Of a DNA stretch of 43,940 bases, positions 27,857 through 40,190 are shown piece by piece. Position 1 is the stretch's first letter; each line of letters opens with the position of its first letter. Both the position numbers and the translations under genes were made by a program. Source of the DNA: Natronorubrum thiooxidans (GTDB lineage: Archaea; Halobacteriota; Halobacteria; Halobacteriales; Natrialbaceae); contig NZ_FTNR01000018.1 in assembly GCF_900156475.1 (NCBI RefSeq), positions 1 to 43,940 on the forward strand, written 5' to 3'. Under the pieces are notes generated by a model. It was given only the letters and a program-made list of their open reading frames with translations. It was not told the DNA's origin and ran no database searches.

Positions 27857-28639
27857 ACGTCTCGTTCGGGACAGCCGAACAACGGATACGGTTCCATCCG
27901 AGGAGACCAGCTCATCGCAGTATCGATACCAGACAGCGACTAACTCGTATCGACAACGATCGGATATCGGTTCGCCGTTCGGGAGTACAGAACGCAGTGT
28001 CGCTGAAACAGTGAATGCAGTGTCGCTGAAACGGTGAGTGAAACGACTCTTGTAGGGGTCGAGTCGTCTCTGAGTCGGGCCAAGCATGTTTTACACTTGT
28101 ATGGTCGTAATTCATAGTTCGTATGGGCGCAGTGCAGTCAGTTCGAATCGGCAACAAGACAGCGCTATTCCGAACACCGAGATAATTCAGGTGCCATGAA
28201 AGCGATCTTAGAAGATATTTAAGATTATAGAGAGAATAGTAGATATATAATTTAAAATATGATTGTGTCTCTGAGAGAGATTGCTGAACGAGATCAACAG
28301 AGAGACGTCGTTATTTTTCAGAGATCACTACAAAAGAAGTGAGTGAAGTGTATTTAGATGCGTTGTAACGGAGAGTGTCGACCAGTACAGTGCTGTCACT
28401 CCAAGTTCTCGATCAGCAATTGACCCGCCGTTCAGTAGTACAGTACTGGCAGAATATCGATCTGATAACGTCGATCGATGTGATATACTAGTATTAGAAA
28501 CTAACAGTATTAGAAAGTGTATGTGACAATATTAGAAATAGTGTACGAATCTAGCAGAAGCTCAAATTGACAGTGTACAGTAGAAGCTCAAATTGACGGA
28601 GGATACAGGGCCAGAGTTCGAGAGTCGGACAGCGAGCTG
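27857..28639. other. Gene-free region between iclR and orc1, with short direct repeats
   Basis: No coding frame is convincing. The part around 28200-28260 is very AT-rich (TTTAAGATTATAGAGAG and TATATAATTTAAAATATG). Direct repeats are present: GCAGTGTCGCTGAAAC at 27994-28009 and 28017-28032, and AGAAGCTCAAATTGAC at 28556-28571 and 28582-28597, plus three TATTAGAAA copies around 28490-28540. It may be part of the replication-origin region or eroded mobile DNA. Confidence 0.45.
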
Positions 28640-29854
28640 TCAACTAAATTGCGACAGTGTCGTTTCTTCGCGGACGTTAGAAAGGCGATCGACGTCGTCG
28701 AGAACTTCGTTGACTGTCTCTGGGTTTATTTCGAGGTCGTACTCCCAGTACTTCCCACCCGACTCTCCTTTGTTCTTTTCTGTAATAGAGAGAAACCCTT
28801 TCAGCGCGAGCTGGCTTAGCTTGTCGTGGATGGTCCGTTGGGCCTTGGGTGTGATCTGAATATTCTCACAAACCTGCTCGTAGACGTTATAGACTGTTTT
28901 TCTCCGTGCGGGGAGTTTTCCTCGTTCTTGTAAGAGTGCAATAGATTGTAACAGAACATGATACTGTGTCGGCAACGAGTAGAGTTCCTTTTCGACGATA
29001 ACACGTTCTAACTGCTCAGACGCCTCACGCACGTGTTCTTCAGTAACAGTTGCATCTTGATGTTTTCGAGCAAGGCGACCAGCAAGGCGAAGAATCTCGA
29101 TCGCATCTCTTGCACTACCAGTATCTTGAGCGACGATTGCAGCCATGTATTCGATAAGGCCCTCGTCGAGTACTCCGTCCTTGAAAGCGAGTTCGGCTCG
29201 CTGTGAAAGAATCTCCTGCAGTTGGGGTGCGTCGTACGTCGAAAAATGAATTTCGTCTTCCTTGAGTGTCGAGCTCGCGCGCGCAGAGATGTTTTCTCGA
29301 AAGGTGAAATTGTTCGAAATCCCGATAACGCCAACCATCGTATCGACGTGTCCGTTCGCCTTTGCTCGTGGGATCTGATATAAGAGAGAATCATCCGTCC
29401 CTAGACTGTCGACCTCGTCTAGCACGATCATGACGTGTGTCGCATCGAGTGCGTCGATCTCGCGCCAAAGCATATTCAACACGTCGGACCGAGAGTGTCC
29501 AGTCCCTTTGATCCGGTCTTCGAAGTCGAGAAGTTCATTGACAGTATCGACTGTTGCTTGATACGACGTCTTGTCCTTGCAGTTGACCCAGACGTGCTCA
29601 AACGAGACGTCGTCTTGGTCTTCGACCGCGTCGCTTAACGCACCGAGAATTCGACGGGTTGCAACAGTCTTTCCGACGCCAGTCTCGCCGTATACGAGGA
29701 TATTGTTCGGTTCGTCCCCAGTCTTGATATCCTCGAGCGCGAATCGGTAGTCGTACATCTCCTCCTCCCGGCCAGGAAGTTCATCAGGAACGTACGTCTC
29801 GCGAAGGACGCTCTTGTCCTCGAAGATTTCGTTTTTGATGTCGAAGAGTCCCAT
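28640..29854 (-). CDS. orc1: Orc1/Cdc6 replication initiator
   Basis: This 404-residue AAA+ ATPase of the archaeal Orc1/Cdc6 family recognises origins and loads MCM helicase. Walker A GETGVGKT lies at 56-63, Walker B IVLDEVDSL with Asp146 and Glu147 follows, and a sensor-1 like VIGISNNFTF and the SRASS-like SARASSTL segment complete the ATPase part. The last 110 residues carry a winged-helix DNA-binding domain (LPTQYHVLLQSIALLQERGK). The gene faces away from a cluster of repeats at 29931-30679, the usual arrangement of a haloarchaeal origin with its cognate initiator. Haloarchaea carry several paralogues; which one this is cannot be told here. Confidence 0.93.
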   Translation of the reverse strand: MGLFDIKNEIFEDKSVLRETYVPDELPGREEEMYDYRFALEDIKTGDEPNNILVYGETGVGKTVATRRILGALSDAVEDQDDVSFEHVWVNCKDKTSYQATVDTVNELLDFEDRIKGTGHSRSDVLNMLWREIDALDATHVMIVLDEVDSLGTDDSLLYQIPRAKANGHVDTMVGVIGISNNFTFRENISARASSTLKEDEIHFSTYDAPQLQEILSQRAELAFKDGVLDEGLIEYMAAIVAQDTGSARDAIEILRLAGRLARKHQDATVTEEHVREASEQLERVIVEKELYSLPTQYHVLLQSIALLQERGKLPARRKTVYNVYEQVCENIQITPKAQRTIHDKLSQLALKGFLSITEKNKGESGGKYWEYDLEINPETVNEVLDDVDRLSNVREETTLSQFS

Positions 29855-29930
29855 AGAGGGAGATATCAGTCAACCGTATTAAGCCTATTCCACCAGCTTG
29901 CGTGTGTCTCGTATGACTCATAGAGGGGGG

Positions 29931-29958
29931 ACACACAGACACCGTTTTGCAAGTGTCT
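29931..29958 (-). repeat. ORB-like repeat, inverted copy
   Basis: The reverse complement of these 28 bp is identical to 30262-30289, beginning AGACACTTGCAAAACGGTGT. The two form a perfect long-range inverted pair 303 bp apart, and this copy is flanked by GGGGGG. Confidence 0.75.
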
Positions 29959-30261
29959 CTGCTAGGAAAGAGGTGGGGTGGTAGAAGAGCGGTTAAATGA
30001 GTGGGGATACTGGAGAATATGGTGAATAAAATAGGTTCGATTTCGGAGGTATCCACCCACACGACTCTTGTAAAATCGAAGCCTTTTAGTAGTGCTGGAT
30101 TTAACCAGAACCGTATTGCAACTAGGAAGAAGCAAGGGAGGTCAAAGACCGACCGCTTCTGGTTGTTCCAAGCTTGAAACCCGCGAATTCTCGATTCGCG
30201 TAGCAGCCGGTCTTTCTGATTCTCCAGCCGCTGTTCGGATAGGGGCCACTCTCGTGAGTGA

Positions 30262-30289
30262 AGACACTTGCAAAACGGTGTCTGTGTGT
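30262..30289 (+). repeat. ORB-like repeat, direct copy 1
   Basis: 28 bp identical to the reverse complement of 29931-29958; core TTGCAAAACGGTGTCTGTGT. Confidence 0.75.
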
Positions 30290-30335
30290 TCGGAACTTAA
30301 CCTCAACACTCCAACACTTCCAATCGATTCCAACC

Positions 30336-30377
30336 AGACACATGCAAAACGGTGTCTCCGGTATCTAATTCTGGAAT
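30336..30377 (+). repeat. ORB-like repeat, direct copy 2 with extended duplication
   Basis: ACATGCAAAACGGTGTCTCC and the following bases to 30377 match 30432-30473 at 40 of 42 positions, so a longer unit around the box was duplicated. Confidence 0.7.
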
Positions 30378-30410
30378 ATCATCCATCCGCTGCTCTATTT
30401 CGACAGCCTG

Positions 30411-30429
30411 GACACATGCAAAACGGTGC
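30411..30429 (+). repeat. ORB-like repeat, direct copy 3 (partial)
   Basis: GACACATGCAAAACGGTGC ends early compared with the other copies; it directly precedes copy 4. Confidence 0.6.
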
Positions 30430-30431
30430 TA

Positions 30432-30473
30432 AGACACATGCAAAACGGTGTCTCCGGTATCCGATTCTGGAAT
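30432..30473 (+). repeat. ORB-like repeat, direct copy 4
   Basis: Nearly identical to 30336-30377 (two differences in 42 bp), 96 bp away. Confidence 0.7.
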
Positions 30474-30506
30474 TTCACGTCTCTCATGATGTCTCTCGAC
30501 CATCCA

Positions 30507-30528
30507 AGACACGTGCAAAATGGTGTCT
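30507..30528 (+). repeat. ORB-like repeat, direct copy 5
   Basis: AGACACGTGCAAAATGGTGT, one core difference (T for C) from the consensus. Confidence 0.65.
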
Positions 30529-30658
30529 GTCAGTCCGACGTGTTGAATTTTCTTCTCTCGAGGCAGTTCTCTCAGCCGCTTTCTCTCGAGGTGTTTTTCT
30601 CGGTCGCTGACAAAATCGCTAAAAGACATGAGCAGATCGGTGTGTTTTGGCTAGATAT

Positions 30659-30680
30659 GACACATGCAAAACGGTGTCTG
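30659..30680 (+). repeat. ORB-like repeat, direct copy 6
   Basis: GACACATGCAAAACGGTGTC; a strongly degenerate further copy may lie at 30623-30644. Confidence 0.65.
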
Positions 30681-30851
30681 CCTACTGAGAATCAAGGAAC
30701 GAGTCTGTTTTTCCATGTCGCCGAAACAGGGAGATTTAGGCACAGAGGAGCCACTGAACAGCAGTACACAGCCGATCGCACGACGGTTTTGTAATTAGTG
30801 CGTGATACGGACTGCTGTAATCAATCACCTCCGATCATCGACCCCATCTCT

Positions 30852-30888
30852 GGTGATCGGCGGTAAATCGGTACAGCAGACCGTATGA
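30852..30888 (-). repeat. Interspersed degenerate repeat, copy B
   Basis: 33 of 37 bases match 6984-7020. On the minus strand the longer context reads GAYEWFIRSAVPIYRRSPEM before a stop, suggesting the tail of an old protein gene with no intact upstream part. Confidence 0.5.
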
Positions 30889-30986
30889 ACCACTCGTAAG
30901 CCCCGCCGCATTTGCCTCGACAGCCTGTAAACAAAAGCGACCTGTTGGCCTCGTGTTTTTGTAGCTGGCTCTCCTGAATTGCGACT

Positions 30987-32120
30987 GTGACCGTGCGAGA
31001 CAACGGTAGGCCCTCGAGCAGTGAGGTTGACGGTATCGCACCCGGTGAAGGATCGGCTTCGAAATCCGTGGACCGTCCATCGTTTGACGACAGTGCTGTC
31101 AGTGAGGAAATCGAGCCTGTCCATGACGTTCCTGGTGGTGTCGACACCGCAACGGTAGACGATCACGACGCTGCCGTTTCTGTTACCGGTTTGAAAAAAC
31201 GCTTCGGTGATGGAACGGCTGCGATCACCGCCGTCAATGACGTCTCGTTCGAAATCGAAACCGGATCGATTGTCGGGTTGTTAGGGCCAAACGGCGCCGG
31301 AAAGACAACGCTCATCAAGTCGATCCTTGGAATGGTCCTTCCGGATGGAGGGACTGTTCGAATTCGGGGCATCGACGTCTATGACCGGCCGCGTGATGCG
31401 TACGCGTCCGTCGATGCGATGCTCGAGGGAGCGCGCAACGATTACTGGCGGTTGACCGTTCAGGAAAACCTCCGATATTTTGCTACGATCAGCGGTGTCG
31501 ATCCGGATTCAGTGCGCGAGCGCCATGAACGGCTCCTGACGCAGCTAGGACTTGCCGAAAAAGCAGATGTCCCCGTCCGCGAGTTATCACGTGGAATGAA
31601 ACAGAAAGTATCGTTGGCGAGCGTTCTCGCCGGGGGAGCGGAGGTCGTCTTTCTCGATGAGCCAACGCTGGGGTTGGATATCGAGAGTTCACGAACGCTC
31701 CAACGGGAGTTACGACGGCTCGTCGAGGAGGAGGACCTGACCGTCGTTCTCAGCAGCCACGATATGGACGTCGTCGAGACGGTCTGTGATCGTGTCCTCA
31801 TCATGTCCGACGGAGCGGTGATTGCAGATGACACTGTCGACGCGCTTCTTTCCGGGACCGATCTTCACTGCATCGAGATTACGAGTAGCGATCTCGTCGC
31901 GTCGGTCGTTTCGACCCTCGAGAATCAGTTCGAGACGATCACTGTCGAGCCACGCGACCGTGGTAGCCGGATCGAAGTGACGACCGACAGTGACGGGCTG
32001 TACGAGTTGCTGGCACACCTCCGTGCCAACGACGTCACGCTTGAGCGGGTGCGAACGATCGAACCGGACCTCGAGGACGTCTTTGTGGACTTGACGACGC
32101 TCGAACGGAGGGATGAATAA
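30987..32120 (+). CDS. ABC-2 type exporter ATP-binding protein
   Basis: This 377-residue ABC ATPase has Walker A GPNGAGKTT (about residues 99-107), the signature LSRGMKQKVSLA, Walker B VVFLDEPTLGLD and the H-loop SSHDMD. The layout, with a C-terminal extension of about 90 residues after the H-loop, is typical of ABC-2 exporters (daunorubicin/multidrug type). The N-terminus is uncertain: the first 60 residues from the GTG at 30987 are polar and acidic without homology, and no internal ATG lies before the ATPase domain. The stop overlaps the permease start (TAATG), so both are one operon. The cargo is unknown. Confidence 0.87.
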   Translation: MTVRDNGRPSSSEVDGIAPGEGSASKSVDRPSFDDSAVSEEIEPVHDVPGGVDTATVDDHDAAVSVTGLKKRFGDGTAAITAVNDVSFEIETGSIVGLLGPNGAGKTTLIKSILGMVLPDGGTVRIRGIDVYDRPRDAYASVDAMLEGARNDYWRLTVQENLRYFATISGVDPDSVRERHERLLTQLGLAEKADVPVRELSRGMKQKVSLASVLAGGAEVVFLDEPTLGLDIESSRTLQRELRRLVEEEDLTVVLSSHDMDVVETVCDRVLIMSDGAVIADDTVDALLSGTDLHCIEITSSDLVASVVSTLENQFETITVEPRDRGSRIEVTTDSDGLYELLAHLRANDVTLERVRTIEPDLEDVFVDLTTLERRDE

Positions 32121-33000: not shown

Positions 33001-33255
33001 GTGACTCACAATCGAATCTACGCACGGAAATCGACACACGACCTCGAGCGCTGGTCCGTTGGCACGATCGACTCGATCACTGAACGAGATGGTCACTGCG
33101 TCTTCGAGGTACCGGTGAGCTATCGAATTTACTCGAGGCCGCTATGGAGATCCCTGCTGATCTCGAGCGGTAACCAACGAGTGCTCTCGAGTGCGGAACG
33201 TGATTCGCTGATCGACGCTCCTGGATGGGTGTGGGGTGGATCAATCGGACGCTGA
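33001..33255 (+). CDS. Possible small hypothetical protein
   Basis: A GTG-initiated frame of 84 residues has protein-like composition (segments RIYARKSTHDLERWSVG and HCVFEVPVSYRIYSRPLW), but I recognise no domain. Its end overlaps the stop of the opposite acidic-protein gene. Codon use is less G/C-ending at third positions than in the neighbours, so it could be a relic or a spurious frame. Confidence 0.3.
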   Translation: MTHNRIYARKSTHDLERWSVGTIDSITERDGHCVFEVPVSYRIYSRPLWRSLLISSGNQRVLSSAERDSLIDAPGWVWGGSIGR

Positions 33256-34113
33256 ATCCGACTCGACCCCGTTATCCTCGGTTGATGTGTCGTCTTGGTC
33301 GCCGATGTGTTCGGCTTCGCCGTCATCATCGGTCAACTCGCCAGCTCTGTCGTCAACGTATCCGGCTTCGGAGTCGTCGTTGACCGAGTTGTCGTTGACC
33401 GAGTTGTCGTTGGCCGAGTCGTCGTCCTTATCGTCAGCTTCCTCATTTTCGGCGTCATCGGCTGTTTGCTCGTCGGTCGGGTCGGTTCGGTCTGCTCTGC
33501 TACCATCTTCGTCCGACGGAGCTGTTTGGTCTGTCTCATCACTCGTGTGGGGAACGTCGGGCGCTTCCGACGTCGCTGTGCCGTCCTCGTCTCCAGTCAA
33601 TTTAGCATCTGATTCTGCTGGTTGTGGTGCGGTGTCGCTGTCTCCTGAGGGCTCGTTTCCATCTGAATTTCCGCCCTCAATCGTCATCTCGTCAGTTCCG
33701 ACCGTTTCGTCCCCGCTTATCTCATCGTCGACAGCCGTCTCGTCTCCGGCTTTGGCCTCGTCCTCGCTTGTTGTGTCGTCTCCGGCTTTGGCCTCACTTT
33801 CGACCGCTTCACCGCTGTTCTGCTGATTTCCGGGCACTGTTCCAGAATCTCCGGCTTCGACTGAGCGCGAGGTTCTATCTGGACCGTCGTTGTCGACCGA
33901 GCCGTTTTCGGAGTCGTTGGCCTGGCTGGTCGTGGGATTCTTCGGTGGAGCATCGTCGATGTCTACCACCGAGAACGAGTCCGCAGTGGCGAACGTTCCC
34001 GAGACCGATTCGGTGTCGGTGAACACCGCGACGGTGGCCGCGCCACCAGCGAAGCCGGCCGTCGCGACGAGGAGGCAGACGATACCGACGGCGAGCGTGC
34101 GCGTTCCTGTCAT
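33241..34113 (-). CDS. Secreted, highly acidic low-complexity protein with SipW-type N-terminus
   Basis: This 290-residue protein has a hydrophobic N-terminal signal segment (VGIVCLLVATAGFAGGAAT, residues about 9-27) followed by VAVFTDTESVSGTFATADSF, which resembles the start of TasA/camelysin-like proteins cut by SipW-type peptidases. The remaining 230 residues are Asp/Glu/Ser/Thr-rich without predicted globular structure, with repeated phrases such as SVNDNSVNDDS. It may be a cell-wall or matrix polymer-like protein. Its start overlaps the stop of the preceding frame by 4 bp, so it is the last gene of the surface operon. Confidence 0.75.
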   Translation of the reverse strand: MTGTRTLAVGIVCLLVATAGFAGGAATVAVFTDTESVSGTFATADSFSVVDIDDAPPKNPTTSQANDSENGSVDNDGPDRTSRSVEAGDSGTVPGNQQNSGEAVESEAKAGDDTTSEDEAKAGDETAVDDEISGDETVGTDEMTIEGGNSDGNEPSGDSDTAPQPAESDAKLTGDEDGTATSEAPDVPHTSDETDQTAPSDEDGSRADRTDPTDEQTADDAENEEADDKDDDSANDNSVNDNSVNDDSEAGYVDDRAGELTDDDGEAEHIGDQDDTSTEDNGVESDSASD

Positions 34114-35140
34114 TCGGATTCCTCTGTCGAGTCGTCCGTCGACACCGGTTCAGTCGTCTCTGCCCATTCGATTTCCGAGTCGATCTCCGTCGCTTGCGCT
34201 GGTGCGGTGTTCACCGATCCCGCCGGCTCATGCTCGGCCGTGACTGCTTTGTCCACGCTCGAGTCCGTTGCAGCCTGATCTGCGATCACCACACTCGAGC
34301 CGCCGTCTGTCGCCGGAGCCACGTCGTCGGCGACCGCTTCGGAGTCAGTAACCGGATTCACCGCCGTCTGATCGGAGCCGGGCATCCCAAAGCGAGTGGA
34401 CAGCAACAGTCCGCCGACGACGAGCACCGAGAGCGTCGCCGCGAACGCCACCGAAATCGCTAGCGTGGTCCGTAGCTCCAAGGCGACGTGGACCGCGTAG
34501 GCTGCGGTAAGTGCCAGAACCCCCGTCGACAGTTGCAGGTCGGTCGGGGTGATGGTGAGCTCGCCGGGTGTCACCTCCGTCGTCGTGGGCGACGCCGGAG
34601 CGGCGCTGTCGCTGCTATCGGCGTCGGCCGTCGAAGACTCGTTTGGCCGCCTGGCGCGCACGAGCGACCACAGTTCGGTTACGACGAGCAGCCCCATGGG
34701 GACGGCGACGAGCAGGACGAACCCGAGCGGCGTGCTCACGGCCTGAATCGCGTAGCCGAGGTACGGAATCGTAGGACGACGACGCCCAGGACGTTCGCTC
34801 CCGGGACCGGGCTTGCGTCCACGTTGCTATTCGCATCACCTCTCGTTTCGAAGGCGACCCCTGTCTCGCTTGCTTCGACACCCACGACACGGTGTGTCAC
34901 TGGCGTCTCTTCGGTGCCTCGAGTGAACGTAATCACGTCGTTCGTTTCGATCGTTGCCGGCGCTCGGTCGGCGACGATCACCACGTCACCAGGGTCAATC
35001 GCCGGTGACATGCTTCCCGAGAGCACGACGAAACTGTACTGTGCGCCGATTACACCCGGAACCGCGTAGATGACGAACGGGACGACGAGGGCGATCAGGA
35101 GGAGCAATCCGATTCCGTTTGCGAGTTTCTTGTAGTTCAT
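34110..35140 (-). pseudogene. SipW-like signal peptidase I with apparent one-base frameshift
   Basis: The first frame (35140-34736, 134 residues) is an archaeal/ER-type signal peptidase: an N-terminal membrane span, the catalytic serine in VLSGSMSPAIDPGD and the histidine in VTHRVVG. Its end, VLRFRTSATRFRP, is nonsense. Reading the other frame from about 34772 restores the conserved sequence TIPYLGYAIQAVSTPLGF and continues through the second membrane span into the frame 34739-34110 (209 residues), a long polar C-terminal extension with two further hydrophobic segments. One base therefore seems missing near 34773. Alternatives are a sequencing error or a real two-part gene: a GTG start overlaps the stop as GTGA (34736-34739). 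The enzyme would process the neighbouring surface proteins. Confidence 0.7.
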
Positions 35141-36106
35141 TTATATGTCCACCTCACAGAGGGGGTTGCCGTCGGTGTCGACCGCCTCGAGGACGGTCAG
35201 ACTGTACGTTCCGTCGGCGATCACGAGCCCCGGCCCAAACGGCTGTGAACAGCTGATGTGGAAGTCGCCGATGGTGGTCCCGTCGACGACGACGTCGAAA
35301 TCGGGACTCCCTTTGATTTCGGGCGGCTCGTGGAGGACTGCGGTGAACGTCTCTCCCGGTTCGACGGTTCGTTCGAACTCGATCGTGTCCGAACGTCGCA
35401 GCAGTTCCAGTGTCGTCTCGCCGTCCGGCCCGTCGTACGCGAAGGTTGCCTGTGCGATTCGATTCCCATTTTGTTCGGGACAGGCGACGCAGTCCGGCGG
35501 CTCCTCGCAGGGCGCAACGCTCGCGAATGGATCACTCGCACTGTCCGCATCGACGTGACGGCACTGTTCGGCGACCAGTTCGACCGTAAATTCGGTCGTC
35601 TCGCCCGCCACCGAATCCGGAACGTCGTCGGGCAGTTCCCACTCGAGTTCGAGATCGATCGCCGTTTCGGGGTCGGTACAACTCGCGAGTCGAACCCCGG
35701 TGGCAAGTGTTCGCGAGACGGCCGAGAGGCTGCCCGCAGCGATCGTGTCACCGTCGACGCGGAAGACGACTGCAAGCGCTTCCCCAAGCGCGTCGCTGAT
35801 CGGTGGACAGCGCGTCCGGAGCCAGAGTCGCGCAGGGTTTGTCTCGACGGTCAGGGAGACTGTGATGGTGTCACCGTCGCCGCGGTCGAGCCCGTCAAAC
35901 GCGAATGCCAGTCGGCCGTCGACGATCGAACACGCGTCGCAGTCGACGTCGATGGCGATCGAGCCGGTCTCGAGTGCGTTCGTCACGCGCTGGCGGTCGC
36001 TCAAATACGCGCCGGTGCCGACGCCGGCGACCGTGCCAGCGGTTCCAATGGCGCCGACTGCGGCGAGTATCTGGCGGCGGCTCAGCCCGATCGAATCCTG
36101 GCTCAT
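35141..36106 (-). CDS. Surface protein with Tat/SipW-type signal (TasA-like family)
   Basis: This 321-residue protein begins with a twin-arginine signal (SRRQILAAVGAIGTAG) that runs into GVGTGAYLSDRQRVTNALETG, the typical SipW-cognate pattern (small residues, then Y/F-x-D and a GxxxxxG stretch). The mature part is beta-rich, with a CDAC near residue 60 and CVACPEQNGN near 230, and ends with a domain containing QPFGPGLVIADGTY. It was trimmed to the ATG at 36106; the open frame extends upstream in other genes. It overlaps the previous gene by 4 bp, and the signal peptidase gene starts directly after its stop. Confidence 0.8.
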   Translation of the reverse strand: MSQDSIGLSRRQILAAVGAIGTAGTVAGVGTGAYLSDRQRVTNALETGSIAIDVDCDACSIVDGRLAFAFDGLDRGDGDTITVSLTVETNPARLWLRTRCPPISDALGEALAVVFRVDGDTIAAGSLSAVSRTLATGVRLASCTDPETAIDLELEWELPDDVPDSVAGETTEFTVELVAEQCRHVDADSASDPFASVAPCEEPPDCVACPEQNGNRIAQATFAYDGPDGETTLELLRRSDTIEFERTVEPGETFTAVLHEPPEIKGSPDFDVVVDGTTIGDFHISCSQPFGPGLVIADGTYSLTVLEAVDTDGNPLCEVDI

Positions 36107-36822
36107 CGGCCACCTCCACACTGTTCTGCGCCGACTGCGAGTTCGAACTCGAGGGACTGGCCTTGCCACTCGTTTGTGGCCGATTCGGTGACCGTCCAGG
36201 CGAATCCAAGGCAGAGCCGGTCTCCTTCGGCGAGGCAGTCGCCGAAGCCGTTTCGAAGCCGGAGCCCGTCGGTTCCGGGCCCGTACATCTCGCCGAGTTC
36301 GGCGAGGGTCAACTCCACGTCGGGATCGTCGGGTATCGCTCCCGTTCCGGTACAGCCGCCGATGCCGAATAGTCCGGTATCGTACCAGAGTGCGACGTCG
36401 ACGACCTCGCTGAGATCGCCCGAAACGGTCGGTATCAGTCTGACCCGCGCATCCATTGCCTCTGCGAAGAGTCCAAGCGCGATCGTCCCGGTGTCCCCTG
36501 GGAGCACGTTCGACGCCGCAATCAGGGGGCCGTCCGTTGCCGCGTCGTAGCCGTCGACAGTCGTCTCTGTGGATGGATCCTCCGCAGGCTGTTCGGTTTC
36601 GTTCGCCGTCGGCGTCGCGTTCACGACGTGACCGTTGTAGGTGCTGTACCAGGCGACGCGAAGTCGTGGTCCGTTGTCGTCGGTCCGAGCGTACGTGTAG
36701 TCCGTATAGTCCGGCGTGTCGCTCGTCACGGTCGCTCCTCGGAATCCGAGGGTAACGAGCCCGGTGGCGCCGACGCCGCCGAGTAGCTTTCGCCGGGTGA
36801 TAGTCGATGTGCGTTGTGTCAC
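36103..36822 (-). CDS. Secreted Tat-signal protein of the surface cluster
   Basis: This 239-residue protein has a Tat motif (TRRKLLGGVGATG, residues 9-21). The mature part contains VLPGDTGTIALGLFAEAMDA, close to the PGD-xG segment of TasA/camelysin-like proteins, and ends in LEFELAVGAEQCGGG, resembling the ends of the neighbouring vWA and 253-residue proteins (LEFDLGLYTEQCRHN). The family resemblance supports secretion to the surface or a fibre. The stop overlaps the next start by 4 bp. Confidence 0.78.
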   Translation of the reverse strand: MTQRTSTITRRKLLGGVGATGLVTLGFRGATVTSDTPDYTDYTYARTDDNGPRLRVAWYSTYNGHVVNATPTANETEQPAEDPSTETTVDGYDAATDGPLIAASNVLPGDTGTIALGLFAEAMDARVRLIPTVSGDLSEVVDVALWYDTGLFGIGGCTGTGAIPDDPDVELTLAELGEMYGPGTDGLRLRNGFGDCLAEGDRLCLGFAWTVTESATNEWQGQSLEFELAVGAEQCGGGR

Positions 36823-37277
36823 TGTCGTTCCTCAGTTTTTCAGCCGGCTCCGCCAGACTGGCCATGGTCGTCTCTCGTGATCGCTGCGGAATGCATCGAT
36901 AGCTGTCCCCCTTCGGCAGGGATATGAATGATAGTCATACCACCTGTAGACGGCTCCGGCAGGGCAATGCTACCGCCCGTCGCCGCCGTAGCAGGTCTGG
37001 CTTACCACTGCCAGTGGCGTGCGTGTCTGCCCGCAAGCGGCTCCTGTACTCGTGCCTGCGGAACCGAGATCGGCCCACAATCCTCGGGAACGTCCGAGTT
37101 CGGTTTCGTTGTTTCTCACGCCTCCTCTTAGACGACGTCCCACCGGCGGCGTCGAACCGCCGTCCCGCGGACCCGATTCGCGTCACGAGCGCTCGGCGGT
37201 GCCGAGGATATCGTACTCCAAGTGGGATCGAACCGTCAGCTGTCGGCTCGGCCACGAAGTTCGCCGTCGCCACCGCT
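36823..37277. other. Intergenic region in the surface cluster with a stem-loop
   Basis: No credible gene is present. The region carries the perfect stem-loop GGCGG-CGTCGAA-CCGCC (37146-37162); a similar stem-loop lies before the next gene at 39044-39060. A promoter for the downstream operon is expected here, but no clear TATA box is visible. Confidence 0.4.
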
Positions 37278-39017
37278 TCAGTTGGTTGCCGTCTCTGCAA
37301 CGAAGTTGTGCCGGCACTGCTCGGTGTAGAGCCCGAGATCGAACTCGAGTGAGGCGCCCTGAACGTCGTTGTTGTCCATCGTCGCCTCGGGATCGCTCGA
37401 GCGAATCGGGAACGCCCAACTGAAGCCGACACAGTGGGTCATCCCAGGTTCGAAACAGTCGATGCCGTCCTCACGCGGCACGGCATCGATGATCCGTCCG
37501 GGGTCGCTCTCGAGGACGTCGAACACCTCGGCGAGGGTTCCGCAGGCGACGACCTCTTCCGGGAGGATTTCGATCGCGACCTGTGCGAATAGGCCGGGGA
37601 TCGACGTCGGGTCGTCGATGTTGAAGAAAAACGCCGGGTCGCCGCCGTAGGCGAACGGATCACCGCTGAAGGTCGCGGCCGTCGCGCCGCTGACGTCGAT
37701 CGGCAGTCCCGCCGGCCCGGCCATCACGCGCTGGGTAAACTCGGCGCGGGAGTCGCCAGCATCGTCGCCGACGATGAAGATGCTCGTCGCGTAGTCGGGG
37801 TCCGTACGGGCCGCGTTCGCGGCGCTCAGCAGGTCCTCGAACCGATCGTTCGTCAGGCTCCCACCGAAGTATGGCTCGCCGTCCGTGAACGTGATCGACT
37901 GTGGCTTGCGGCTGTCGTCGACTCGTCCGTCGAACAGATCCATGAGTTCGCCGAACCCTTCCTCGAGGGCGGTCCCGGTCCCGTCGAACAGGTCGTCGAG
38001 TTGGTCTCGAAGGTTCCGTAACGGCGCGTCGCCGCTCCCGTCGAGCGTGATCAGGTCGGTGATGGCTGACGTGAACCCGTCGCCGTCGGGATCGCCCCAG
38101 CCCCCGATATCCACGGATGTGATGACGTTTGGGCCGGGGTTGCTCGAGTCACCGTCGTTGCTGTAGCCGTCGAAGAACACCGCACCGATGCGGAAGTCGT
38201 CGGCGTCGATGTCCGGATCGGCGTCGATTTCTCCCTGCAGGAGATCGATGAAGTCGATGACGCCTTGCTCGACGAGATCGATCTTTGCGGTCTGGCTGTA
38301 GGACGTCTCCCCGTACTCGGCGTTACCGACCGTGATCGAGTCACTGGTGACGATCCCGCCGTACTGCGAGTACAGCATCGAGCCCGAGAAGTCGATCATC
38401 AACACGAGATCGGACGGCTCGAGGTCGTCGTAGACGTTGTCACAGTCCTCGTCGCGCCAGAGCTTCGCACGGAGGTAGTCCGCAAGCTGGCCGTCGCCAG
38501 CGCCGGGCGTCTCCCCGGTAACCTCACCGTTCATCCAGACGTAGCCGGGGTTGTCACAGAGCGTGAACCCGAACGTGACCTCCCCTTCGTCGCCGGGTTT
38601 GATGTCGGCAAGCGAGATGGCCGGCCGTGGTGCCTTCCCGAGGGTCTCGAAGTCACCACACGAGAGCGGGAGGTTGCGCCCGTCCGCAGGGTCATCGTTC
38701 GGATTGTTGACGTAGGTTAGGTCGCCGAGTGACTGGATGCCGTCGCCGTCGTGATCCGGGTACGCATTGACCCAGGGGCGGCCGGCATCGCCGTAGTCGC
38801 CCGGTCGGACCGACTGGTCCGCCCCGTAGTAGAGCTGCTGCCAGCTGCCGTGCATGGTAAGCTGGCCGGCGGTGAGCGTGTTTCCGTCGAACGATTCCTG
38901 GTCGCTGAAGTAGGCGGCCGTCCCGAGTCCCGCGCCGACCGACGCGACGCCGATCGCGCCGAGTCCGCCGAGGATCTTTCGTCGGGAAAGACCGACCGTC
39001 TTGTCGTTGGTAGTCAT
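37278..39017 (-). CDS. Secreted von Willebrand A domain protein with Tat/SipW-type signal
   Basis: This 579-residue protein starts with a twin-arginine signal (LSRRKILGGLGAIG, residues 10-23) and AAYFSDQESFDGNTLTAG. The TasA-like part (40-200) is interrupted by a vWA domain (about 203-440) whose metal site reads DFSGS (209-213) with the later TFTDGEPYFGG. The C-terminal part (HCVGFSWAFPIRS to QCRHN) again matches the neighbours. vWA domains bind ligands or partner proteins, so it may be an adhesive tip of a fibre. It is the largest gene of the surface group and is exported by the Tat route. Confidence 0.88.
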   Translation of the reverse strand: MTTNDKTVGLSRRKILGGLGAIGVASVGAGLGTAAYFSDQESFDGNTLTAGQLTMHGSWQQLYYGADQSVRPGDYGDAGRPWVNAYPDHDGDGIQSLGDLTYVNNPNDDPADGRNLPLSCGDFETLGKAPRPAISLADIKPGDEGEVTFGFTLCDNPGYVWMNGEVTGETPGAGDGQLADYLRAKLWRDEDCDNVYDDLEPSDLVLMIDFSGSMLYSQYGGIVTSDSITVGNAEYGETSYSQTAKIDLVEQGVIDFIDLLQGEIDADPDIDADDFRIGAVFFDGYSNDGDSSNPGPNVITSVDIGGWGDPDGDGFTSAITDLITLDGSGDAPLRNLRDQLDDLFDGTGTALEEGFGELMDLFDGRVDDSRKPQSITFTDGEPYFGGSLTNDRFEDLLSAANAARTDPDYATSIFIVGDDAGDSRAEFTQRVMAGPAGLPIDVSGATAATFSGDPFAYGGDPAFFFNIDDPTSIPGLFAQVAIEILPEEVVACGTLAEVFDVLESDPGRIIDAVPREDGIDCFEPGMTHCVGFSWAFPIRSSDPEATMDNNDVQGASLEFDLGLYTEQCRHNFVAETATN

Positions 39018-39154
39018 GGTATGTCCCCGATGGGGAAGCCCACTTGCGGAGTCGAACCGCCCCGATAACCCGCGATCACGGTCGTACCGGCCGGTCCGCG
39101 AGCGTCCGATCGCCCGCTACCGGGTGGGTGGTCAGTCGAAAGCCGGACGGCTAC

Positions 39155-39916
39155 TCAGGGTGAGAGTCCCATCGCGTTGTCCAGGACGCTTGCTGCGTCG
39201 TTGTGGCGCGCCTGTTCGGCGTAGAACGTCATGCTCGAGGTCAGCGTCGCCCCCTGGATCTCGTTACCAACGTCCGTTGGGATCGTCACGTCCAGACAGA
39301 CGGTCACCGTCTCGCCGGGTTGGAACGTCACCGCTCCCTCGTCGTCCGAGACAATGATGCCGCTCTCGAGGCTCGCAAGGAGGTCGGCCAACGAGCCGTA
39401 GGCCTGCTCGTGTTCGACACCGTCGACGGTGGTCGTGAGCGTCGCCGTCGCCGACTCACCCAGCGTCGAGAGATCGGCCTCGTCGTCGATGTCCCAGAGA
39501 TCGTCCAGATTGACGTTCTCCGCGTCGACACCGTTTTGTTCGTCCGAATCGCCGACCACGACGACGTAGCCGGGGTTGTCACCGACGGTGATGTCCCAGC
39601 AGAATTTGTACTCGTCACCGGGCTTTGCGTCCTCGATATCGATCGGTGACTGCACCCAGATACCGTCCTCACCTGCTCCGTTCTCGTATGCAGCTTGGTC
39701 GGGACCCATGCCATCCTGGTCGAGGTGCTGGACCGATTGCTTGACCTCGAGGCTGAACGATCCTGCCGTGATCGTGTTGTCCGAGAAGGTCTCCTGGTCG
39801 CTGAAGTACGCTGTCGTTCCCAGGCCCGCCCCCGCGGAGGCGATGCCGATCGCGCCAATGCCACCGAGCACGCGTCGGCGGGACAGTCCAATGTTGCTGT
39901 TGTTGTCGTCGGTCAT
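39155..39916 (-). CDS. Secreted Tat/SipW-type signal protein (TasA/camelysin-like)
   Basis: This 253-residue protein is close to the N- and C-terminal parts of the vWA protein without the insert: LSRRRVLGGIGAIGIAS, TAYFSDQETFSDNTITAG, then IEDAKPGDEYKFCWDITVGD and finally FYAEQARHNDAAS. It is probably a structural subunit of the same fibre or surface layer. The ATG at 39916 follows a leader of unusual length; no TATA box is evident near it. It is separated from the vWA gene by 137 bp containing a stem-loop. Confidence 0.82.
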   Translation of the reverse strand: MTDDNNSNIGLSRRRVLGGIGAIGIASAGAGLGTTAYFSDQETFSDNTITAGSFSLEVKQSVQHLDQDGMGPDQAAYENGAGEDGIWVQSPIDIEDAKPGDEYKFCWDITVGDNPGYVVVVGDSDEQNGVDAENVNLDDLWDIDDEADLSTLGESATATLTTTVDGVEHEQAYGSLADLLASLESGIIVSDDEGAVTFQPGETVTVCLDVTIPTDVGNEIQGATLTSSMTFYAEQARHNDAASVLDNAMGLSP

Positions 39917-40190
39917 GGTTGTGCTCCCGAGCGATCGGCGGGAACCTCGAGGCACCTCGTGATCGATCGGGTATTTCTCCAGGGGGGAGCACCCCTCGTA
40001 GTTACAAGTTGATACGTCACTGTGGAACGACACACTTGGTCCCGAAGCGCCGAGTCAAACCACCCGTTCGGCGGCAGTAGGGTCTCCAAGCCGGGTTTCC
40101 AGCCCGATTCGTGGCTATACATGGTGACACTACCGGATCGCTCGAGCGGCGGTCAGGGTTGCGTACCGCCCGACGGATGACCGGATGGAT

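Follow-up and report, generated by a model that had tools for sequence, protein, structure and literature searches.

A predicted Orc1/Cdc6-dependent replication origin of the haloarchaeal extrachromosomal type with eight ORB-like boxes

In archaeal initiation, ATP-bound Orc1 sits on its boxes and MCM is recruited, with an opposed pair of boxes enclosing the melting site. On the plasmid PL100 of Haloquadratum walsbyi, the origins OriP1 and OriP2 have been predicted, and both cdc6 genes are reported to have ORB-like repeats upstream (PMC3119063). The origins of Haloarcula hispanica depend on their adjacent cdc6, as does the plasmid origin oriP-cdc6K, and an ORB-rich array can titrate the initiator (PMC3936714). 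Outward polarity of the boxes has been described for the H. hispanica oriC1, where the G-string is essential (PMC3936714). The G-string also served as a prediction criterion for haloarchaeal orc/cdc6-adjacent origins (Wu et al. 2012). Across 15 haloarchaea each Orc/Cdc6 family has one ORB type, and paralogue-specific boxes are the norm (PMC3528665). ORB type tracks the Orc/Cdc6 family, and new origins arrive with new genomic content (PMC3528665; PMC4441112). Two origins of Haloferax mediterranei, oriC4-cdc6H and oriP1-cdc6L, are dormant (PMC4595724).

The stretch of DNA analysed here, called the window, is one whole contig (C16) of 43,940 bp from a 4.2 Mb draft genome in 62 contigs. The replicon to which it belongs therefore has to be inferred. 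The window contains an orc1/cdc6 gene with an array of boxes upstream (Table 1), and we are confident in predicting that replication can start here in dependence on Orc1/Cdc6, at an origin of the kind found on haloarchaeal extrachromosomal elements.

Table 1. Features of the predicted origin, with positions counted from the first base of the window.
Feature	Position	Strand	Remarks
Origin module	27860-31160	none	3.3 kb, low GC, between two blocks each kept elsewhere without the module
orc1/cdc6 initiator gene	28640-29854	-	404 aa; Pfam domains, translation
TATA-like TTAATA	29877-29882	-	~26 nt upstream of orc1 ATG
Degenerate box AGACACACGCAAGCTGGTGG	29890-29909	-	precedes TTAATA in box-to-orc1 direction; read from sequence
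G6 run	29925-29930	+	abuts inverted box; CCCCCC downstream in box orientation
Inverted ORB-like box AGACACTTGCAAAACGGTGTCT	29937-29958	-	within 28-bp arm 29931-29958
Candidate DNA unwinding element	29993-30042	none	66% AT, nearest-neighbour stability profile
Direct box 1 AGACACTTGCAAAACGGTGTCT	30262-30283	+	
Direct box 2 AGACACATGCAAAACGGTGTCT	30336-30357	+	
Direct box 3 GGACACATGCAAAACGGTGCTA	30410-30431	+	3' end truncated
Direct box 4 AGACACATGCAAAACGGTGTCT	30432-30453	+	
Direct box 5 AGACACGTGCAAAATGGTGTCT	30507-30528	+	
Direct box 6 AGACATGAGCAGATCGGTGTGT	30624-30645	+	degenerate
Direct box 7 TGACACATGCAAAACGGTGTCT	30658-30679	+	

The product of the gene scored above the Pfam cut-offs for an AAA+ domain, the Cdc6 lid (9.3e-23) and the Cdc6 C-terminal winged-helix domain (1.4e-18). 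Its ATP-binding motifs, GETGVGKT and VLDEVDS (Walker A/B), are whole in the translation. The closest solved structures are the Orc1/Cdc6 proteins 2qby of S. solfataricus and 2v1u of A. pernix, and residues 9-380 are alignable with 2qby_A. Judged from its translation, the protein is a member of the archaeal Orc1/Cdc6 initiator family and its gene is intact.

The intergenic region adjoining orc1 holds eight repeated ORB-like elements between 29937 and 30679. One copy of AGACACNTGCAAAACGGTGTCT is inverted and seven are direct; five of the direct copies are strong and two are degenerate. The initial annotation had counted at least five direct copies beside the inverted one, and had described the outer inverted pair as identical over 28 bp. 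The second statement is exact, as the 28-nt arms (29931-29958 and 30262-30289) are 100% complementary and form a perfect inverted repeat. An intact box is itself an imperfect palindrome, with AGACAC and GTGTCT arms about an asymmetric NTGCAAAACG, and the GGTGT ends of opposed boxes face outwards. With up to one mismatch allowed, the core TGCAAAACGGTG has 7 copies in the window, all of them within 29940-30676, against an expectation of 0.07; 0/100 shuffled windows reached 7 copies. A pattern search of the 4.2 Mb genome with GCAAAACGGTGTCT (at most one mismatch) gave 11 matches, 6 in the array and 5 scattered singly over five contigs; as a control, the reversed pattern gave 4. The box cluster is unique to this locus within the 4.2 Mb genome.

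Between the opposed boxes, the least stable 50 bp rank in about the top 0.7% of the window, and this stretch is a fair candidate for the unwinding element. The enrichment in AT that the inverted pair encloses is moderate, with 60% AT over 100 bp and 49% G+C across the 303 bp between the arms. The layout is like that of haloarchaeal oriC1, with opposed boxes, G-rich ends outward, a less stable stretch between them and orc1 adjoining. By analogy with described origins, Orc1 encoded at 28640-29854 would bind its cognate ORB-like boxes, of which the orc1-proximal one faces the gene and the distal array faces away. ATP-bound Orc1 on the opposed boxes would then melt the AT-rich stretch (about 29990-30090), and MCM would be loaded there for the origin to fire. 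The extra direct copies may strengthen initiator binding or titrate the initiator.

Titration could also be the main task of the array. With seven direct copies on one side, it might chiefly control orc1 expression or titrate the initiator while initiation takes place elsewhere, as for oriC2D, an ORB-rich region of Haloarcula hispanica; oriC2D-like arrays titrate Cdc6E (PMC3936714), and the box nearest to orc1 in relatives borders on a TATA-like sequence. We consider this very unlikely. The window array is upstream of orc1 and its opposed pair flanks the least stable stretch between the boxes, which is the usual layout of an active origin. Moreover, oriC2D is downstream of cdc6E, whereas a matrix scan of the 43.9 kb window found no boxes downstream of its orc1. 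Autoregulation is conceivable as well, in which Orc1 bound near its own promoter would limit its own synthesis. The degenerate box and TATA-like sequence at 29877-29909 weakly suggest a candidate autoregulated orc1 promoter, and in several relatives an orc1-facing box stands directly before a TTTATAA-type sequence. The degenerate box was missed by a matrix of relatives' boxes at score 9.

Downstream of orc1, 28060-28620 is non-coding, AT-rich (41% G+C) and free of boxes. It includes the 50 bp of lowest stability in the whole window (28209-28258) and two-copy repeats at 28504/28526 and 28553/28579. A second box type was considered for the repeats at 28504-28597 and 28000-28040 but dropped, as their copies are too few. 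On the other side, about 120 bp past the last box, lies a dispersed repeat of ~87 bp that is palindromic (about GATACGGACTGCTGTA...TACAGCAGACCGTATGA; 30800-30893; DNA fold z -5.3). It recurs at roughly 40 places in the genome and has matches in 21/81 genomes sampled from the family, in 12/29 genera. It has no Rfam match and looks like a MITE- or REP-like element.

The draft genome encodes 21 Orc1/Cdc6-type genes, and five compared genomes, four of the same genus and one of the same family, have 15-17. In a de novo search, most of the other 20 genes had upstream repeats of their own with different sequences, so one box type per initiator is the rule in this genome. The window box is absent beside all 20; the best score was 16.5 at a single site, compared with 28-32 for intact window boxes. 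The probable oriC1 locus lies elsewhere, on contig C26, with inverted boxes of the CCAGTTGAAACGAAGGGGTGGGGG type. The window box ACTTGCAAAACGGTGTCTGTGTG differs from these and has no canonical G-string, and the two Orc1 proteins are 33% identical. The window locus is thus not the chromosomal oriC1, by box and by Orc1. This agrees with the earlier impression that the core does not resemble the best-known haloarchaeal origin box.

A G6 run had been reported to touch one copy of the box, and it does abut the inverted box. We rejected it as a halophile G-string, as its polarity is opposite and it contacts one copy only. The window boxes end in GGTGTCT, and none carries a canonical G-string. In the wider set of relatives, a C5 run follows 7/87 listed boxes and a G5 run 13/87 (some loci are listed twice); several boxes of this set end in GGTGTGT and also have no G-string. 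A literature search for the GGTGTGT box end returned nothing relevant. Because a canonical G-string is missing, the locus was classed among origins that adjoin orc1 and have ORB-like boxes, and not as a full match to Wu et al. 2012.

Relatives of the window Orc1 were sought among 293 genomes of the order and in a plasmid collection. The nearest proteins from the order are about 50% identical, and the nearest relatives (about 48-52% identity) are on haloarchaeal plasmids or small contigs. Named examples from the plasmid collection include Haloarcula sp. JP-L23 unnamed5 (L091), Natronococcus occultus plasmid 2 (L092), Halorussus caseinilyticus and H. walsbyi PL100 (L133). In a maximum-likelihood tree, the window Orc1 forms one clade with L091, L092, L133 and a locus of genome G046 (L136), with support of 100/99. 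A matrix built from the window boxes detected the box beside several Orc1 relatives. Conversely, a matrix from relatives' boxes alone ranked the eight window boxes above every other site in 43.9 kb; these relatives' boxes had first been chosen by the window matrix, which makes the test partly circular. A de novo repeat search that did not use the window sequence served as the independent control. It recovered the same box upstream of the Orc1 genes of L091, L092, L136 and L108, the last from genome G239.

Within the clade, the box is present in 3/4 of the other members. JP-L23 unnamed5 (CP050019) and N. occultus plasmid 2 (NC_019976), whose Orc1 proteins are 49-52% identical to that of the window, carry opposed copies of the same box (GAACACTCGCAAAAYGGTGTGT or AAACACTTGCAAACTGGTGTCT) upstream of their orc1 genes. 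They differ in having 2-3 boxes, compared with eight in the window, and other neighbour genes. The fourth member, PL100 Orc1 (84892-86097), is 48% identical and has a divergent box, ACGTCCGTGAAAAACGGTGTGT, which scores 17 against 28-32 for intact window boxes. Adjacent clades have a variant box, either of the type CTCGTGAAAnnTGGTGTGT or with GGGGGGT. Outside the clade, oriP-cdc6K of H. hispanica pHH400 is comparable as a megaplasmid origin beside an Orc1 41% identical to that of the window; it is ARS-active and essential to its plasmid. Its Orc1 belongs to another clade, however, and it has no box of the window type.

The box type is thus common to related Orc1 proteins, with L108 as the exception. 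Here (G239:C18:106000-113000) the Orc1 is only 39% identical to that of the window, and seven strong boxes almost like those of the window (AAACACTTGCAAAACGGTGTGT) stand on the two sides of its gene. Unrelated Orc1 genes in G126 (L110) and G242 (L109) each have one near-identical box nearby. From these three loci it follows that box and clade do not correspond one to one. An alignment of winged-helix domains revealed no obvious common signature. The initial annotation had proposed a repeat family peculiar to this locus, and had suggested comparing the box with those beside related Orc1 proteins. That comparison rejects the proposal, as the same box stands beside three of the four nearest relatives and one more distant Orc1 and is not unique to the window initiator. 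Of the further suggestion, a distinct initiator-origin pair, the difference in box type from oriC1 holds, and a new initiator-origin system does not. It is doubtful whether (G)ACACNTGCAAAACGGTGTST defines a distinct, unnamed class of haloarchaeal plasmid origins without a G-string whose box has also been adopted by the distant G239 Orc1. If it did, convergence of box specificity, or its exchange between Orc1 lineages, could be the reason. A viral origin was discarded, as no exact box was found in viral contigs and phage Orc1 matches are just 26-28% identical. At the DNA level, relatives of the module in plasmids gave short matches only, and among the matches listed all fall within orc1; a related-locus search of genome contigs gave one irrelevant distant match.

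G+C per kb is 44-52% from 28 to 31 kb and mostly 54-67% elsewhere in the window, except at 41-43 kb. The window is collinear with a 357-kb Natronorubrum aibiense plasmid over 296-6710 (91% identity) and from 31173 to 39 kb (81-91%). There, 3.7 kb of unrelated DNA replaces the 24.4 kb of the window between 6.7 and 31.2 kb. The part from 19.1 to 27.86 kb matches a 508-kb Natrinema zhouii plasmid, and the flanking blocks are also found on an N. bangense plasmid. The module itself (27.86-31.16 kb) is absent from the sites of these blocks on the N. aibiense, N. bangense and Natrinema zhouii plasmids. The initial annotation had suggested a megaplasmid or an acquired secondary origin, and plasmid blocks on the flanks make both plasmid DNA and an acquired module probable. 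On the simplest reading of this synteny, a Natronorubrum-type megaplasmid acquired a catabolic island with an origin, which perhaps replaced the resident one. The module most likely entered together with the adjoining catabolic cluster, and the origin probably serves that megaplasmid.

Two catabolic clusters occupy 291-27856. They encode hydantoinase A/B, two isochorismatase-like, two PEP-mutase/isocitrate-lyase-like and two MmgE/PrpD proteins, an aconitase-like pair, an HMG-CoA-lyase-like protein, CoA transferase III, an amidohydrolase, an FAD oxidoreductase, an ABC transporter of the branched-chain amino-acid type and an IclR regulator. A block without Pfam matches spans 33241-40033. On Natronorubrum plasmids, its relatives bear the annotation of signal peptidase I and of repeated proteins with SipW-dependent-type signal peptides, which marks the block by annotation as a cluster for the cell surface or secretion. 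Scans of the window for Rfam families and tRNAs gave no match.

A junction between two blocks is also where the remnant of a mobile element or plasmid might lie, left by a past integration, with the module in disuse and the contig chromosomal. The matching catabolic block of N. zhouii ends beside a tyrosine integrase gene. Two relatives have the ABC transporter block on a large contig (G297:C1, 4.06 Mb; G189:C2, 1.3 Mb), and a chromosomal location is therefore possible. We nevertheless judge a remnant unlikely. The gene and five strong boxes are intact, and collinearity with the 357-kb plasmid extends over 0.3-6.7 and 31.2-39 kb. No transposase or integrase was found among the scanned window proteins, and no direct repeat of at least 10 bp at the module edges.

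The predicted origin may be a dormant or backup one, a competent orc1-box pair that stays silent in the wild type because replication of the replicon starts at another origin. Haloarchaeal origins gained recently, in variable regions, are in some cases dormant (PMC4595724). The window origin is like oriC4-cdc6H of H. mediterranei in its strain-variable context and its absence from relatives, but a plasmid context, not a chromosomal one, is likely for it. With 21 Orc1-type genes in the genome and a different Orc1 on the syntenic N. aibiense plasmid (34% identical to the window Orc1), dormancy is a tentative but real possibility. Against it, the boxes and orc1 gene are intact. In addition, the N. 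aibiense plasmid Orc1 has no close counterpart in the genome of the window (best 53% identity), and the module may therefore be the replicon's own origin. Dormancy is compatible with the identification as an Orc1/Cdc6-dependent origin, as it concerns use and not kind.

With this locus, the list of haloarchaeal origins gains one more pair of initiator and box, and the general picture stays as it was. The locus might serve haloarchaeal vectors as an orthogonal plasmid origin. The position of the origin module at a junction of plasmid blocks is as predicted by the proposed model of origin gain.
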